In this document: positions 21,607-27,421 of the stretch, in pieces
How positions within the stretch are numbered: the first letter of the stretch is position 1
How the letters are laid out: every line of letters starts with the position of its first letter
Assembly (NCBI RefSeq): GCF_900696085.1
Contig: NZ_CAADFC020000004.1
Coordinates: forward strand, 814,985 to 878,984
Direction of reading: 5' to 3'
DNA: 64,000 nt
Source of the DNA: Bradyrhizobium ivorense
Lineage (GTDB): Bacteria > Pseudomonadota > Alphaproteobacteria > Rhizobiales > Xanthobacteraceae
The notes under the pieces: model-generated
What the model saw: the letters and a program-made list of their open reading frames with translations, nothing else
Database searches by the model: none
Told to the model about the DNA's origin: nothing
Position numbers and translations under genes: made by a program

Positions 21607-23781
21607 TTACGCCTGTTTCAGCAGCGCCGGATCGATCGGCATCTTGCGCAGCCGCTTGCCGGTTGCGGCGAAGATCGCGTTGCTGATCGCCGGCACGATG
21701 CCCGACGTGCCGGTCTCGCCCATGCCGCCCGGCGGCTCCGTGCTCGGCACGATATGCACCTCGATCGCCGGCGCGGCGTCGATCCGCAGCATCTGGTAGC
21801 TGTCGAAATTGCCCTGCTCGACGCGACCGTCCTTCAGCGTGATCTCGCCATAGAGCGCGGCGGTGACGCCGAAATTGATGCCGCTCTGCAGCTGCGCCTG
21901 CACCGTGTTCGGATTGACCACGGTGCCGCAATCCATCGCGCAGACCACGCGGTGCACGCGCACCGAGCCGTCCTTGGCGACCTCGACTTCGGCGACCTGC
22001 GCGAGGTAGCTGCCGAACACGAATTGCAAGGACACGCCGCGGCCGCGCCCGGCCGGCAGCTTCTCGCCCCAGCCGGCCTTGGCCGCTGCAAGCTCCAGCG
22101 CCGCCTTGGCGCGCGGTGACTTGCCGAGCAGCGCGCGGCGATACGCTACCGGGTCCTGCTTCGCCGCCGCCGCCAGCTCGTCGATCATGCTTTCGGCGAC
22201 GAACACGTTGTGCGAGGGCCCGACGCTGCGCCAGAACGCGGTCGGAATGCCGGGCGGCTCGACCCGCACATATTCGACGTGGAAGTTCGGGATGTCGTAG
22301 ACCAGATCGATCGCGCCTTCGGTGGTATCCGGATCGAGGCCGTTGCGAAACACCGGCGGCGCCCAGCGCGCGAGCACCGACGATCCGGCGAACCGGTTGT
22401 TCCAGGCGACCGGCTTGCCCGCCGCATCGAGGCCGACGGAAATCCGGTCGAACCAGTACGGACGGTACATGTCGTGCTGGATGTCCTCCTCGCGGGTCCA
22501 CACCAGCTTGACCGGCGCGTCGACCTGTTTGGCGATCTGCACCGCGCGGATCACGCTGTCGACCTCGAGCCTGCGGCCGAATCCGCCGCCGAGCAGATGA
22601 TTGTGCACCACCACCTCCTCCGGCGGCAGGTTCAGCACCTTCGCCGCCACCGCCTGCGCGCGCGACAGCGCCTGGCTGCCGAGCCAGATCTCGCAGCCAT
22701 CCGCGCGCACATGCACGGTGCAGTTCATCGGCTCCATGGTGGCATGGGCGAGGAACGGCAACTGATAGGTCGACTCGACCCTGGTCGCCGCGCCCGCCAT
22801 CGCCTTGTCGGCGTCGCCGACATTTTGCGCCACCGCGCCCGGCCTGGTGGTGGCGGCCTCGAGCTCGCGCGCGATGTCCGCCGTGTTGAGCTTGGCGTGC
22901 GGACCGTCGTCCCACTCGATCGTCAGCGCGGCAAGGCCCTTCTTCGCCGCGCCCATGTGATCGGCGATGACGGCGACCGCATCGTCGAGCTGCACGATCT
23001 GGCGCACGCCCTTGACGGCTTTGGCCGCCGCGTCATCGACGCGCTTGACCTTGCCGCCGAACACCGGCGACTGCGCCAACGTCGCGACCTTGACGCCGGG
23101 CGGCCGGGCATCGATGCCATACATCGCGGTGCCGTTGATCTTCGACGGCGTATCGAGCCGCTTCGCCGGCGTGCCGATCAGCTTGAAATCGGCCGGGCTC
23201 TTCAGCGTCACCTGCTCCGGCACCGGCAGCTTGGCGGCATCGGCGGCCAGCGCGCCATAGCCGAGCTTGCGGCCGGAGGCGGCATGCAGCACCTCGCCCT
23301 TCTCGGCGCGGCAGGAAGCGGGATCGACTTCCCAGCGCTTCGCCGCGGCGGCGACCAGCATCGCCTTGGCGGTGGCGCCGGCCTTGCGCATCGGCTGCCA
23401 CGAGCCGCGCATCGCGTTCGAATTGCCGGTGGCCTGCACACCGAGCAGCGGATTGGCATAGAGCTTGTCGCTCGGCGGCGCGTGCTCGAGCTGTATCTGC
23501 TTCAGCTCGACCTCGAGCTCCTCGGCGATCAGCATCGGGATCGAGGTATAGGTGCCCTGCCCCATCTCGACATAGGGCATGGTCAGCACGATGCGGCCGT
23601 CGCCGCCGATCTTGACGAAGGCATTCGGCTCGAAATTGTCGGACGCGGCCAGCGCACCGTCGCCGCCGGCGAGCGGCAGGCTGACGCTGAGCAACAGGCC
23701 GCCGCCGGCCACCGCCGTCGCCCGGAGGAAATTGCGCCGCGACAGCTCGGCCGCGCGCTCGGAAAGATTCGTCAGCGTCAT
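21607..23781 (-). CDS. Molybdenum hydroxylase large subunit (IorB-like)
   Basis: 724 residues. The Tat signal (ERAAELSRRNFLRATAVAGG) points to export of a folded, cofactor-loaded enzyme. Molybdopterin-binding signatures of the xanthine-oxidase family are seen: the PYVEMGQGTYTS block, GGGFGRRLEV, PTAFWRSVGPSHNVFVAES, and the catalytic Glu in GGMGETGTSGIVPA. The layout (no FAD domain, separate 2Fe-2S subunit) matches isoquinoline 1-oxidoreductase-type and quinone-linked aldehyde dehydrogenases; the true substrate is unknown. The ATG at 23781 has GGGAGG upstream and lies 2 bases after the small-subunit stop. Confidence 0.9.
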   Translation of the reverse strand: MTLTNLSERAAELSRRNFLRATAVAGGGLLLSVSLPLAGGDGALAASDNFEPNAFVKIGGDGRIVLTMPYVEMGQGTYTSIPMLIAEELEVELKQIQLEHAPPSDKLYANPLLGVQATGNSNAMRGSWQPMRKAGATAKAMLVAAAAKRWEVDPASCRAEKGEVLHAASGRKLGYGALAADAAKLPVPEQVTLKSPADFKLIGTPAKRLDTPSKINGTAMYGIDARPPGVKVATLAQSPVFGGKVKRVDDAAAKAVKGVRQIVQLDDAVAVIADHMGAAKKGLAALTIEWDDGPHAKLNTADIARELEAATTRPGAVAQNVGDADKAMAGAATRVESTYQLPFLAHATMEPMNCTVHVRADGCEIWLGSQALSRAQAVAAKVLNLPPEEVVVHNHLLGGGFGRRLEVDSVIRAVQIAKQVDAPVKLVWTREEDIQHDMYRPYWFDRISVGLDAAGKPVAWNNRFAGSSVLARWAPPVFRNGLDPDTTEGAIDLVYDIPNFHVEYVRVEPPGIPTAFWRSVGPSHNVFVAESMIDELAAAAKQDPVAYRRALLGKSPRAKAALELAAAKAGWGEKLPAGRGRGVSLQFVFGSYLAQVAEVEVAKDGSVRVHRVVCAMDCGTVVNPNTVQAQLQSGINFGVTAALYGEITLKDGRVEQGNFDSYQMLRIDAAPAIEVHIVPSTEPPGGMGETGTSGIVPAISNAIFAATGKRLRKMPIDPALLKQA

Positions 23782-23783
23782 GA

Positions 23784-24245
23784 TCAACCTCCCGACTGCG
23801 CAGCTTGCTTGATCGCTTCGCGAATGCGCACGTAGGTGCCGCAGCGGCAGATATTACCCGCCATCGCGTCGTCGATATCGGCATCGGTCGGCTTCGGCTT
23901 GCTGGCGAGCAACGCCGACGCCGACATGATCTGCCCGGACTGGCAGTAGCCGCATTGCGGCACCTCGTGCGCGAGCCAGGCGTCCTGGATCTTCTTGCCG
24001 GCCGGCGTCTTGCCGACCGCCTCGATGGTTGTGATCTTGGAATCGCCGATGCTGTCGATCGTGGTGATGCAGGAGCGCACCGCGGTGTCGTCGAGATGCA
24101 CCGTGCAGGCGCCGCACAGCGCCATGCCGCAGCCGAACTTGGTGCCGGTCATGCCGAGCACGTCGCGCAGCACCCACAGCAGCGGCGTATCGCCGTCGGC
24201 GTCGACCGAATGACTGGTCCCGTTGATATTGATCTGGAAGGCCAT
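23784..24245 (-). CDS. 2Fe-2S subunit of molybdenum hydroxylase (IorA-like)
   Basis: 153 residues without a signal peptide, so it is probably exported with the Tat-tagged large subunit. The plant-type 2Fe-2S cysteines are in [18 protein letters not shown] and the later RSC. The second cluster is in [14 protein letters not shown] and [14 protein letters not shown]. It passes electrons from the molybdenum site to a membrane acceptor. No cytochrome c subunit is encoded beside it. The start at [10 protein letters not shown] removes a doubtful Arg-rich extension. Confidence 0.93.
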
Positions 24246-24437
24246 CGCGACACTCCTGTCCTGGTTCGGCCTGCAAGGACGCTCGCGCGGTCGCCCCCTC
24301 CGGGCGCGGTCGGCAAGCATTTCGCATCAATCCGGCGCGCTGGTCGCGCCGATTACTCACTCGTGGTAATAAATCCAATTCCGGCGCCGCGTTAGTGACG
24401 CCCTGTTCCATTATGAAAGAACCATTGGTTTATAATC

Positions 24438-25355: not shown

Positions 25356-25928
25356 TCAGCGTGCGCCGCCGGGATGATCTGCCTCGTAGCGGGCAGCCGC
25401 CGCCTCGAACATGCGTCGCCTCTGCTCGCGGTCCAGGCGGTGTTCCTCGAGGGTCAGCGCGTCCCACTCGCTGCGTTCGGCGGCAAAGAAATCGCCGCCA
25501 TAGATGTGGATCGCGCCGGTCAGCCGATCGATCGGATTGATGACCGAGTGGATGATGTCGGCGCCGAACGCCACAGCGTCGCCTTCGCAAAGCGCCCGCG
25601 CGCCGGCGGCCTCGACCTTGTTTGGCGTATCGGGAATGCGGCGCCAGAAGATGTTGTCTTCGCGCCCCGAGTAAACGCCGATCATGGCCCACATCCGGTG
25701 ATCGTGCGGCATCACCATCATGCCTGGCGCCCAGACCACGTTGAGGATCGTGAGCTTGTCCGAATGGAACAGCGCGCGGCTTTCTGGGCGCGTCGGCTCA
25801 CCCAGCCCTCTGAGCACGGCCGCCGGGTCGGACACCGCGCGTGCAAGGACTTCACGAACCGCCTTGTGGGTAGGCTCCGCCGCAAAAGCTGCGCGACAGT
25901 CGGCGATGAATTGCTCGGGGTCAAACAT
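25356..25928 (-). CDS. Cysteine dioxygenase-like cupin protein
   Basis: A 190-residue cupin. The metal site is suggested by MPHDHRMWAMIGVYSGRE (H-x-H plus E/N) and the second-half histidine in FGADIIHSVINP, a pattern shared with thiol dioxygenases such as cysteine or 3-mercaptopropionate dioxygenase. The substrate is unknown. The ATG at 25928 has AGGAGAT upstream. It lies convergent with the LysR gene (36-base gap). Confidence 0.8.
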   Translation of the reverse strand: MFDPEQFIADCRAAFAAEPTHKAVREVLARAVSDPAAVLRGLGEPTRPESRALFHSDKLTILNVVWAPGMMVMPHDHRMWAMIGVYSGREDNIFWRRIPDTPNKVEAAGARALCEGDAVAFGADIIHSVINPIDRLTGAIHIYGGDFFAAERSEWDALTLEEHRLDREQRRRMFEAAAARYEADHPGGAR

Positions 25929-26270
25929 ACCAATCTCCTATGAGAGACCAATGGCTGCTAACTGGACCGTCTGCGAGCTGCCTCGCTTGAAGATTCCATG
26001 AACGCTTGAGCGACCGGGTCCCCTAACACACAACGGAGACAATCGGCTTGATGCGCACGCGCAAGTCCACCGCGGCGGCGGAACAAACTACCTCACCTGC
26101 TCCGCTTCGGCCATGCGATTTGCAGGCTCGGCATTTTGCGTTGCGAGACCGGCGCGCCATTCACAACACTTTTATTGCGACGCGTCGCGCGGTTCGCCTC
26201 CTTCAACTGGGCGACTTGCGTCTGTTGTTGTAGTCTTGGAGAAGCACCACGGACGTCACGAGGGTTTCAC
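25929..26270. other. Intergenic region between divergent genes
   Basis: About 340 bases with no convincing gene; short open frames here lack ribosome sites. The region should hold promoters for the cupin gene (minus) and for the Tat-protein operon (plus). No clear operator was found. Confidence 0.35.
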
Positions 26271-26762
26271 ATGACCGCCGTCCTACTCAACCGCCGCACC
26301 CTGCTCGCTGCCGGCGGCTCCGTGCTGGCAGCATCCGCGGTTCCCGGGCTGCTGTTGCCGGCCCGCGCGCAGAACCTCGCACCGACCGCCTCGATGCTGG
26401 GCGGGTCCAACAACTACCTCGCGGGCGCGCCGGTCGTGGAGCGGATCGGCAAGGGTGGCTTCTGGATGAGTGGCACGGTGCGTCGCGCCGGCGATGGGGC
26501 GCCGCTTGCCGGGCAGCGCATCCAGATCTGGGCGCACACCATCGAGGGCCGCGAGCATGAACCGCATAGTCATGGCGCCACGCTCACCGACAAGAACGGC
26601 GCGTTCCGTCTCGAGATTCCGCAGATCATTCCCGTTTTCGGCCAGCCGCATGGCCACCTCGCCTATGACAGCGGTGAATTCAAGACCGTGTTCCTGCGTC
26701 CTGTGATGGGGAGCCCCAAGGATACCAGCCTGGAGGCGCACTTCGTCCTGCAGCCGGCCTGA
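26271..26762 (+). CDS. Tat-exported dioxygenase-fold protein
   Basis: 163 residues. A twin-arginine signal (LLNRRTLLAAGGSVLAASAV) precedes a beta-sandwich that resembles intradiol dioxygenases (FWMSGTVRRAGDGAPLAGQR, ATLTDKNGAFRLEIPQI, PHGHLAYDSGEFKTVFLRP). Potential metal-binding histidines are H89, H96, H99, H101, H127 and H129. The pair of tyrosine ligands normal for intradiol enzymes is not evident, so activity may differ. The stop is 5 bases before the TTG start of the haem-type membrane protein gene, so the two are probably one functional unit. Confidence 0.72.
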   Translation: MTAVLLNRRTLLAAGGSVLAASAVPGLLLPARAQNLAPTASMLGGSNNYLAGAPVVERIGKGGFWMSGTVRRAGDGAPLAGQRIQIWAHTIEGREHEPHSHGATLTDKNGAFRLEIPQIIPVFGQPHGHLAYDSGEFKTVFLRPVMGSPKDTSLEAHFVLQPA

Positions 26763-26767
26763 CCGAG

Positions 26768-27421
26768 TTGCCAACGACCGGATGGAGATGGCCCCGGGTA
26801 ACCCTGATCTGGGTCGCCATTATTTTGGCCGTTGGCGTGCCGATCGCCGCCGCGGCGGCAAGCCCGTTGCTCGCGTGGCGCGATCCGCTCTACACCCTGG
26901 CCGGCTTCGCCGGGATCGTCGCACTCGGCGTCATGCTGTTTCAGCCTGTGCTGATCGGCGGATACCTGCCGGGACTGCCCGGCCGGATCGGCCGGCGCGT
27001 CCATCTGTTCACCGGAGCCACGCTGGTCGCGGCGGTGGTGATCCACGTCGGCGGCCTCTGGATCACCAGTCCGCCCGACATGATCGACGCCCTGACCTTC
27101 ACGTCGCCGACGCCGTTCTCCCCGTTCGGGGTGATCGCGATGTGGGCGATCTTCGCCGTCGCCGTGTTGGCCGCGTTCCGACGGCGGTTGGGACTGCGGC
27201 CGCGAACTTGGCTCTTCGCGCATAGGCTGCTTGCGATCGTCATCGTGGTCGGGAGCGTGGTCCATGGCATACTGATCGAGGGGACCATGGAGATGGTCTC
27301 GAAGCTTGCGCTTTGCGCACTGGTCCTTGCCGCGACCGTCAAGGTCATGGCGGATCTCTGGATGTGGCGAAGGCGCGCGCGGTTGCGCGACCGGACCGAC
27401 GTCGGCGCAAGCTCGGCATAA
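26768..27421 (+). CDS. Ferric-reductase-like haem membrane protein
   Basis: 217 residues, about six transmembrane helices. Two pairs of histidines spaced 14 residues apart on two helices (H79/H93 in RRVHLFTGATLVAAVVIHVG; H152/H166 in AHRLLAIVIVVGSVVHGIL) are the bis-haem arrangement of the YedZ/MsrQ and ferric reductase families. It would bring electrons from the membrane to the periplasm. The start is a TTG at 26768; no in-frame ATG is nearer. There is no cytoplasmic NAD(P)H-binding domain. It is coupled to the Tat-exported protein upstream. Confidence 0.72.
   Translation: MPTTGWRWPRVTLIWVAIILAVGVPIAAAAASPLLAWRDPLYTLAGFAGIVALGVMLFQPVLIGGYLPGLPGRIGRRVHLFTGATLVAAVVIHVGGLWITSPPDMIDALTFTSPTPFSPFGVIAMWAIFAVAVLAAFRRRLGLRPRTWLFAHRLLAIVIVVGSVVHGILIEGTMEMVSKLALCALVLAATVKVMADLWMWRRRARLRDRTDVGASSA

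Follow-up and report, generated by a model that had tools for sequence, protein, structure and literature searches.

A two-gene locus in Bradyrhizobium ivorense

Our analysis concerns a 64,000-nucleotide stretch (the window) of the 9.4 Mb genome of Bradyrhizobium ivorense (assembly GCF_900696085.1, contig NZ_CAADFC020000004.1) and, within it, two adjacent genes that we call A and B. Gene A (26271-26762, on the + strand, as are all features below unless stated otherwise) runs from ATG to TGA and encodes a 163-aa protein with a twin-arginine translocation (Tat) signal and a predicted, divergent intradiol dioxygenase fold. Gene B (26768-27421) runs from a TTG start to a TAA stop and encodes a 217-aa membrane protein with six predicted helices, assigned to the ferric reductase domain (FRD) superfamily and predicted to bind two b haems. 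The two genes are separated by 5 bases (26763-26767), exactly as read in a first-pass annotation that was made from the sequence alone and that proposed an undescribed periplasmic redox pair. Our results confirm an undescribed, tightly linked periplasmic pair, whose members would work together in a redox reaction. No paper describing the pair was found in the open-licence PubMed Central literature. Bacteria are known to have few routes by which electrons reach enzymes beyond the cytoplasmic membrane.

Genes A and B occur together

A scan of genome contigs confirmed 577 relatives of A, and adjacency was counted on the best 80 of these together with the other fetched loci. We retrieved 151 loci that hold a relative of A scoring at least 100 bits, and in each of them B lies on the same strand as A. 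Some of these loci are repeats, leaving 122 distinct A/B pairs, for which start codons, and hence gaps, were chosen by a script. All 122 pairs are co-oriented, and the gap falls between -50 and +30 bases in 119 of them and is exactly 5 bases in 41. Adjacency in relatives had been set beforehand as a test of the proposed pair, and these counts speak for it. Of the three outliers, a gap of -98 (L116) stems from a wrongly chosen B start, one of 170 (L121) precedes an intact B frame, and one of 705 (L123) belongs to an interrupted B in a metagenome-assembled genome.

Conservation analysis showed that the pair is shared by part of the class to which the window belongs. Of 60 related genomes, 25 have a relative of A, and the 36 that share the window's genus account for 21 of these, counting the window's genome itself. 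In a survey of 385 genomes of the class, a full A relative was found in 11 and B in the identical 11, and 4 more genomes gave only weak, different matches to A. A survey of 398 genomes of the phylum detected A in 20 and B (E value of 2e-32 or better) in the same 20, all of them members of the window's class; weak matches only were seen in 2 other genomes for A and in 3 other genomes for B. Likewise, A and B match the identical 8 of 72,556 plasmid records, and none of the phage records searched encodes A. Carriers include some soil and marine bacteria. Among the best 80 of the 577 relatives, the closest named ones are from Bradyrhizobium, and two bear titles from outside the Alphaproteobacteria ('Frankia sp. 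RB7', L103, and a Betaproteobacteria metagenome bin, L133), which we take as mislabelled or mixed assemblies.

The co-orientation of all 122 pairs and the identical genome sets in two surveys indicate that the linkage of A and B is not due to chance. In line with this, pairwise distances of A and B correlate across 63 loci (r = 0.85), matching the expectation for co-inherited genes. In the same loci A is better conserved than B, with a mean pairwise difference of 0.25 compared to 0.39.

Gene A encodes a Tat-exported protein with an intradiol dioxygenase fold

For A we aligned 88 of the 122 sequences, after removal of rows that were at least 93% identical. The Tat signal peptide noticed in the first pass (26271-26369) is borne out by this alignment: of the twin arginines at residues 8-9, R8 is present in 87 of 88 rows (the other has a gap) and R9 in 88/88, and A31 and A33 of the AxA cleavage motif at residues 31-33 are at least 90% conserved. 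The mature part of A contains no cysteine.

A beta-sandwich, likewise proposed at the outset, is what AlphaFold2 predicts. The best model has a mean predicted local distance difference test score (pLDDT) of 82, with 85-98 in every 10-residue block from residue 51 and a disordered signal peptide; two of the five models are poor (pLDDT 58-59). Foldseek ranks intradiol dioxygenases as the best matches of the model (E value 5.5e-8). In VIA, the model reaches a Z score of 13.3 both to hydroxyquinol 1,2-dioxygenase (root mean square deviation, rmsd, 2.8 over 126 residues) and to a phage catechol dioxygenase (rmsd 3.5 over 133 residues). The first 28 of the 50 entries in the VIA list are intradiol enzymes, and other transthyretin-like domains follow from Z 9.2 downwards, with protocatechuate dioxygenase alpha subunits ranking among them at Z 8.4-8.5.

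Profile comparison points in the same direction. The nearest detected sequence relatives of A are Tat-exported intradiol dioxygenases (hhalign probability 97.9, E value 4.3e-13; best E value among 20 column-shuffled controls 0.0048), and with the first 59 residues cut from both sides the E value is still 5.6e-8. Against the transthyretin-related HiuH of Escherichia coli the A profile gives an E value of 0.11. The window's A stays under every Pfam cut-off, scoring 14.4 bits for PF00775 (Dioxygenase_C) against a required 27.3; at E values of 0.1 or below, 84 of the 88 A members match PF00775 weakly (best 2e-4) and 77 match DUF4198, also weakly and below its cut-off (best 8e-4). Neither the sequence nor the profile of A gives a significant match to solved structures. 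Taken together, the model and the profiles support an intradiol beta-sandwich for A.

Seven weak matches to A (L051-L055, L166 and L167; E values 4.7e-5 to 9e-4) were rejected as relatives. Four of them are dioxygenases that carry the tyrosines, three Tat-exported (L052, L053 and L167) and one larger (L166). The match at L054 coincides in part with a dioxygenase that shares 63% identity with L053, and the one at L051 with a frame resembling RNA polymerase; at L055 none of the frames seen looked like a dioxygenase.

The iron site of intradiol dioxygenases is rebuilt in A

In intradiol dioxygenases, tyrosines hold the iron in the ferric state, and in protocatechuate dioxygenase the roles at the site belong to an equatorial and an axial tyrosine, an arginine and a glutamine. 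As a comparison set we used 22 aligned tyrosine-type relatives, of which 16 are of the Tat-exported type (twin arginines visible in 14 of the 16 rows as trimmed) and 6 come from the window's genome and include two near-copies. This genome carries two near-identical protocatechuate 3,4-dioxygenase alpha/beta gene pairs on different contigs (L001 and L002; contigs 4 and 43).

The first tyrosine ligand lies 8 residues after a conserved tryptophan in all 22 dioxygenases. In A, the corresponding position, reached without gaps from the conserved Trp87 (Trp+8) and paired likewise by hhalign, is occupied by Glu95 (codon 26553-26555) in 88/88 rows, and this residue is the predicted metal ligand in place of the equatorial tyrosine. 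The position of the second tyrosine ligand holds I, A, V, N or T. The His-x-His pair is kept as His127-Gly-His129 (26649-26657), with both histidines present in every row of A and aligned to the ligands of the dioxygenases. Thus, of the two tyrosines and two histidines that bind iron in intradiol enzymes, A retains both histidines only. The first-pass annotation had likewise seen an intradiol-dioxygenase-like protein lacking obvious tyrosine ligands.

Further changes surround this position. His101 (26571-26573) is invariant in all 88 rows, where the dioxygenases have F, Y, R or A, and may serve as a further ligand or proton donor. The conserved arginine of the dioxygenases corresponds to the invariant Gln125 of A (to Gly124 or a one-residue gap in other alignments), the conserved glutamine of the following strand corresponds to the invariant Arg143, and a loop of A is up to 13 columns shorter than in the tyrosine-type enzymes. 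In the tree, all A sequences group together (100/100) at the end of a long stem, 3.67 changes per column in length, and the tree gives no exact sister of A within the Tat-exported group. Many Fe(II) oxygenases bind their metal through a glutamate and two histidines, and the title of one structure entry records a solved Y408E mutant of protocatechuate dioxygenase. As judged from the alignments, our best reading is that a ferric ring-cleavage site has been rebuilt into a redox-active two-histidine, one-glutamate site that probably binds iron.

Gene B encodes a short FRD protein with four haem-type histidines

The alignment of B comprises 70 of 74 representatives (rows at least 85% identical removed); the remaining four (L038, L116, L123 and L160) were left out as broken, interrupted or mis-started. 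The two H-x13-H pairs that had been noticed in the membrane protein are H79/H93 in helix 3 (codons 27002-27004 and 27044-27046) and H152/H166 in helix 5 (27221-27223 and 27263-27265), and all four histidines are invariant in the 70 rows, so that the second test set beforehand, conservation of these histidines, also speaks for the pair. Their conservation predicts two haems of the b type, an inner one on the cytoplasmic side bound by H79 and H152 and an outer one on the periplasmic side bound by H93 and H166, a placement taken from the predicted helices and the positive-inside pattern. In L116, outside the alignment, 15 residues instead of 13 separate the histidines of the second pair.

All 70 rows match PF01794 (Ferric_reduct) at E values of 0.1 or below, the best being 7.5e-11. 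The window's B alone scores 26 bits against the Pfam curated cut-off of 28 for this family, and passes it with 28.6 bits in the genome search, where the scanned frame takes in its neighbours. In this PF01794 search B was the sole FRD protein found in the window's genome. The structural model of B has a mean pLDDT of 90 and long helices at residues 7-30, 40-64, 72-100, 119-136, 145-169 and 176-216. A second aligner relates it to cytochrome b561 (Z 16.0, rmsd 2.9, 175 residues), SpNOX (Z 14.8, rmsd 4.5, 184 residues) and NOX5 (Z 13.5, rmsd 6.1, 183 residues), values of about 13-16 that for helical proteins can partly reflect common packing. Foldseek gave no match for the B model at an E value of 0.001 or below (best 0.027). 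Among the sequences of solved structures, B has a single match, to a designed protein (E value 0.0065), and the B profile has none.

Loop 2 has 3 lysines plus arginines, loop 4 has 5 and the C-terminus 6, against none in loop 3, which has two acidic residues. With the positive charges distributed in this way, loops 3 (D104, D107) and 5 are placed in the periplasm. Loop 3 (residues 101-118; 27068-27121) is predicted to be periplasmic and acidic, carries the invariant residues D104, D107, T115 and F117, and may be the place where A docks. The family matches of B include none that binds flavin or NAD(P)H, and the protein, at 217 aa, ends after helix 6. B is thus a short FRD form with all four histidines. 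According to a review of this superfamily, most short bacterial forms possess two or three of these histidines, and the few that possess all four are placed close to the long forms (PMC3591440).

The FRD partner goes with the tyrosine-less site

As a control, 30 genomes with relatives of the L053 type (a tyrosine-bearing Tat-exported dioxygenase) were searched for PF01794, the tyrosines being checked in the aligned rows only. Sixteen matches were found in 15 of the 30 genomes, and none of these FRD genes (0/16) lies at or near the listed dioxygenase positions: 14 are on other contigs and two (G073 and G190) are on the same contig more than 500 kb away. The B profile has no match in 33 control loci, whose flanks extend to about 1.5 kb at most. 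Conversely, 30 genomes with A all contain PF01794, with the match at the A locus in 28; in the other two (G056 and G747) the PF01794 model misses B, and B-specific searches find it. From these counts, the FRD partner goes with the rebuilt, tyrosine-less site and not with Tat-exported dioxygenases in general. If this holds, the pair would amount to a natural experiment in which a ferric, redox-silent site gave up its tyrosines and an electron donor was gained alongside.

Neighbourhood and upstream region

Neighbouring reading frames were clustered in 108 loci, 49 of which were assigned to non-Bradyrhizobium hosts, and the resulting families were judged by eye. No third gene keeps the same position in more than 6 of the 49 non-Bradyrhizobium loci, so that A/B looks like a two-gene unit. 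The largest third family is found in 12 of the 49 loci, scattered at offsets from -4576 to +7988. Families at a fixed place come from loci with a longer common gene order (L102, L109, L116, L119, L120 and L132; L127, L128 and L130), which we read as inherited synteny that points to no pathway; another such family is a four-locus cluster of frames overlapping A itself. The annotated plasmid neighbourhoods of the pair differ among themselves.

A conserved element of the TTCACAACA type lies about 110 bp before A (26160-26178) and is shared by Bradyrhizobium-like loci, as is a second conserved block of the TGTTGTTGTA type about 50 bp before the start of A. Words of the TTCACAACA-type element are enriched upstream of A, the top word occurring in 76 of 120 distinct regions compared to 0.6 in shuffled ones. 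In the window's genome the full element has its exact match here only, and one match with 2 mismatches. As there is no second exact copy, no regulon was found, and the element probably belongs to the promoter or operator of this operon itself. Consensus patterns for Irr, FixK/Fnr, EcfG, RpoN, RpoH, ECF-type, SoxR, LexA, RirA and Fur-like sites gave nothing convincing in the 120 upstream regions: a loose RirA pattern matched 81 of them at no fixed position, an Irr box was found in none and a Fur-like box in one.

Several neighbouring genes were recorded on the way. In five loci (L109, L116, L119, L120 and L132) the pair lies, as judged by eye, between two isocitrate-dehydrogenase-like genes of different types. 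The upstream one lies at about -1.5 kb in these five, the downstream one at about +1.2 kb in six loci (L102 has the downstream gene only), and this is probably the common gene order of related genomes. On the Rhodovulum plasmid pRGUI02 (L039), a divergent gene with a cytochrome b/b6 domain flanks the pair, and the pair is followed by genes for a c-type cytochrome and an FAD oxidoreductase, with haem/iron-transport and TonB genes nearby, making this the most redox-rich annotated plasmid neighbourhood seen. Within the window, a 190-aa protein with a cupin-like histidine motif (PHDHRMW) is encoded on the - strand at 25359-25928; it has no Pfam match above cut-off and no NCBIfam family, and is possibly a cysteine-dioxygenase-like thiol dioxygenase. 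Another exported redox enzyme is encoded close to A/B, a molybdenum-hydroxylase pair on the - strand (21610-24320) whose 726-aa large subunit carries a twin-arginine signal and is a relative of aldehyde/xanthine dehydrogenases; the 178-aa protein that precedes it reads like an iron-sulfur subunit.

A proposed electron-transfer pair and its alternatives

The reading that we favour, and to which we give an even chance, is that A and B form a dedicated electron-transfer pair, in which a bis-haem B feeds the rebuilt metal site of the exported A. B would draw on the cytoplasm or the quinone pool for electrons and pass them across the membrane via the inner haem (H79/H152) and then the outer haem (H93/H166). 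A would be folded in the cytoplasm, exported by the Tat pathway and docked on the acidic periplasmic loops of B. Its centre would consist of His127, His129, Glu95 and perhaps His101, most likely around a mononuclear non-haem iron, which with the ferric-stabilising tyrosines replaced would now cycle between Fe(III) and Fe(II). Reduced A would then reduce an oxidant derived from O2, such as peroxide or superoxide, or activate O2 for a periplasmic substrate. In its more specific and more tentative form, for which we would argue with less than even confidence, A is an electron-fed periplasmic two-histidine, one-carboxylate non-haem iron enzyme on an intradiol scaffold, powered by its own bis-haem cytochrome. 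If true, the pair would represent a new class of enzyme, periplasmic, driven by electrons and handling oxygen or peroxide, that arose by a tyrosine swap and an added wire. The two proteins are small and the prediction is residue-specific (Glu95, His101, His127 and His129 of A and the four histidines of B), so that it is directly testable.

Several observations weigh against this electron-transfer reading. Without the signal region, the best-path alignment of A with Tat-exported dioxygenases stops before His127, and the His-x-His motifs are paired only after realignment; the grouping of Glu95, His127 and His129 into one site comes from alignment. The similarity of A to the cytoplasmic intradiol enzymes of its own genome is weak (hhalign probability 43, E value 2.4e-4). 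The protocatechuate dioxygenase alpha subunit encoded in this genome is also tyrosine-less, with a phenylalanine for the first tyrosine, no tyrosine before 'APHILL' and one histidine of the pair left; we take this subunit to be non-catalytic, so that a protein of this fold does not become a redox enzyme simply by losing its tyrosines. A differs from it in that both histidines are kept and Glu95 is gained. Moreover, in 3 of the 122 pairs B looks broken or interrupted beside an intact A, by an in-frame stop on plasmid pSMR1-3 (L038), in the metagenome-assembled genome mentioned above (L123), and by a transposase-like frame close to a contig end (L160), indicating that A may not always need B. 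Finally, no neighbour, regulator or paper in the loci, upstream regions and open-licence literature searched indicates a substrate.

The main rival, which we consider unlikely, is a metal-acquisition pair in which A binds Fe(III) or Cu(II) in the periplasm and B reduces the bound ion for uptake, as STEAP proteins or ferric reductases do. The membership of B in the FRD superfamily fits this view, and an invariant His/Glu cluster like that of A would be in keeping with metal binding. DUF4198, to which A is weakly similar, is linked to metal uptake, and the pair on the Rhodovulum plasmid lies near haem/iron-transport and TonB genes. However, no iron- or copper-uptake family keeps a constant position beside the pair across the 49 non-Bradyrhizobium loci, as judged by eye with no family search, Irr and Fur-like boxes are absent or nearly so from the upstream regions, and A has no cysteine.

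Electrons could also flow in the reverse direction, with A oxidising a periplasmic substrate such as a phenol and B returning the electrons to the quinone pool or the cytoplasm. The fold of A is that of aromatic-ring enzymes and b-type cytochromes can work in either direction, but canonical intradiol enzymes require no external electron carrier, and the residues that handle the substrate are altered in A (second tyrosine lost, arginine to glutamine). In addition, the well-studied FRD proteins MsrQ and NOX send electrons outwards (PMC5676040). We regard reverse flow as improbable.

It is still less probable that A lacks a metal site and serves as a structural or stabilising subunit, conserved for its contact with B only, and that B alone is the enzyme. 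The stronger conservation of A than of B would be compatible with such a role, the fold of A includes common binding modules, and the protocatechuate dioxygenase alpha subunit, in its presumed role, offers a precedent for a subunit that has lost its ligands; however, a pure scaffold would not need a His-x-His motif and a Glu95 that stand exactly at ligand positions and are invariant in all 88 rows. We give hardly any credit to a last alternative, an A that still cleaves rings as an intradiol dioxygenase beside an incidental B, which would fit the fold and the closest detected relatives but is contradicted by the absence of both tyrosine ligands from every A row, by the Dioxygenase_C score far under its cut-off, and by the fact that A was not found without B in the two genome surveys and the 122 pairs.

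Comparison with known systems

The first-pass annotation likened the locus to MsrP/MsrQ (YedY/YedZ), and as an analogy of layout this comparison stands: in E. coli msrP-msrQ, too, an exported catalytic protein is directly followed by an FRD haem membrane protein, and E. coli MsrQ matches PF01794 (E value 2.2e-16). The analogy does not extend to the proteins themselves. A has an intradiol fold and no cysteine in its mature part, and is no molybdopterin protein of the sulfite oxidase fold like MsrP. B is not MsrQ, since it does not match the MsrQ model and has four histidines. Neither the window's B nor three diverged B proteins match NF003831, to which E. coli MsrQ matches at 1e-71, and a direct comparison of B with E. 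coli MsrQ is not significant. In the superfamily review, YedZ is reported to have three histidines, and MsrQ/YedZ is defined by the replacement of the first canonical histidine by arginine (PMC3591440), whereas B keeps His79 in 70/70 rows.

Like NOX and the bacterial long-form ferric reductases such as SpNOX, B has six helices and four haem-type histidines; in contrast to them, no FAD/NAD(P)H domain was found in B, and its acceptor is presumably A. B also resembles the 'MsrQ-like' flavinylation systems in that a PF01794 protein would act as the membrane conduit for an extracytosolic redox partner (PMC8238504). That study defines these systems by their place in a gene cluster associated with flavinylation, marked by an FMN-binding domain or an ApbE gene, and the word 'dioxygenase' does not occur in its main text. 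Beside A/B, neither an FMN-binding nor an ApbE gene was seen to recur among the neighbour clusters, which were inspected by eye with no family search.

With the Tat-exported intradiol dioxygenases (PF00775; L052, L053 and L167), A shares the Tat signal, the fold, the core sequence and the His-x-His motif. It differs from them in Glu95 for the first tyrosine, the missing second tyrosine, the exchanges of arginine to glutamine and glutamine to arginine, and His101, and in having an FRD partner, which was not found beside those relatives. An FRD membrane cytochrome with an exported client is known already, but, to our knowledge and in the literature searched, the fold of A is unreported among such clients, and we know of no intradiol fold served by an FRD system. 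If our reading is correct, the set of enzyme folds served by FRD membrane cytochromes would grow by one with A/B.

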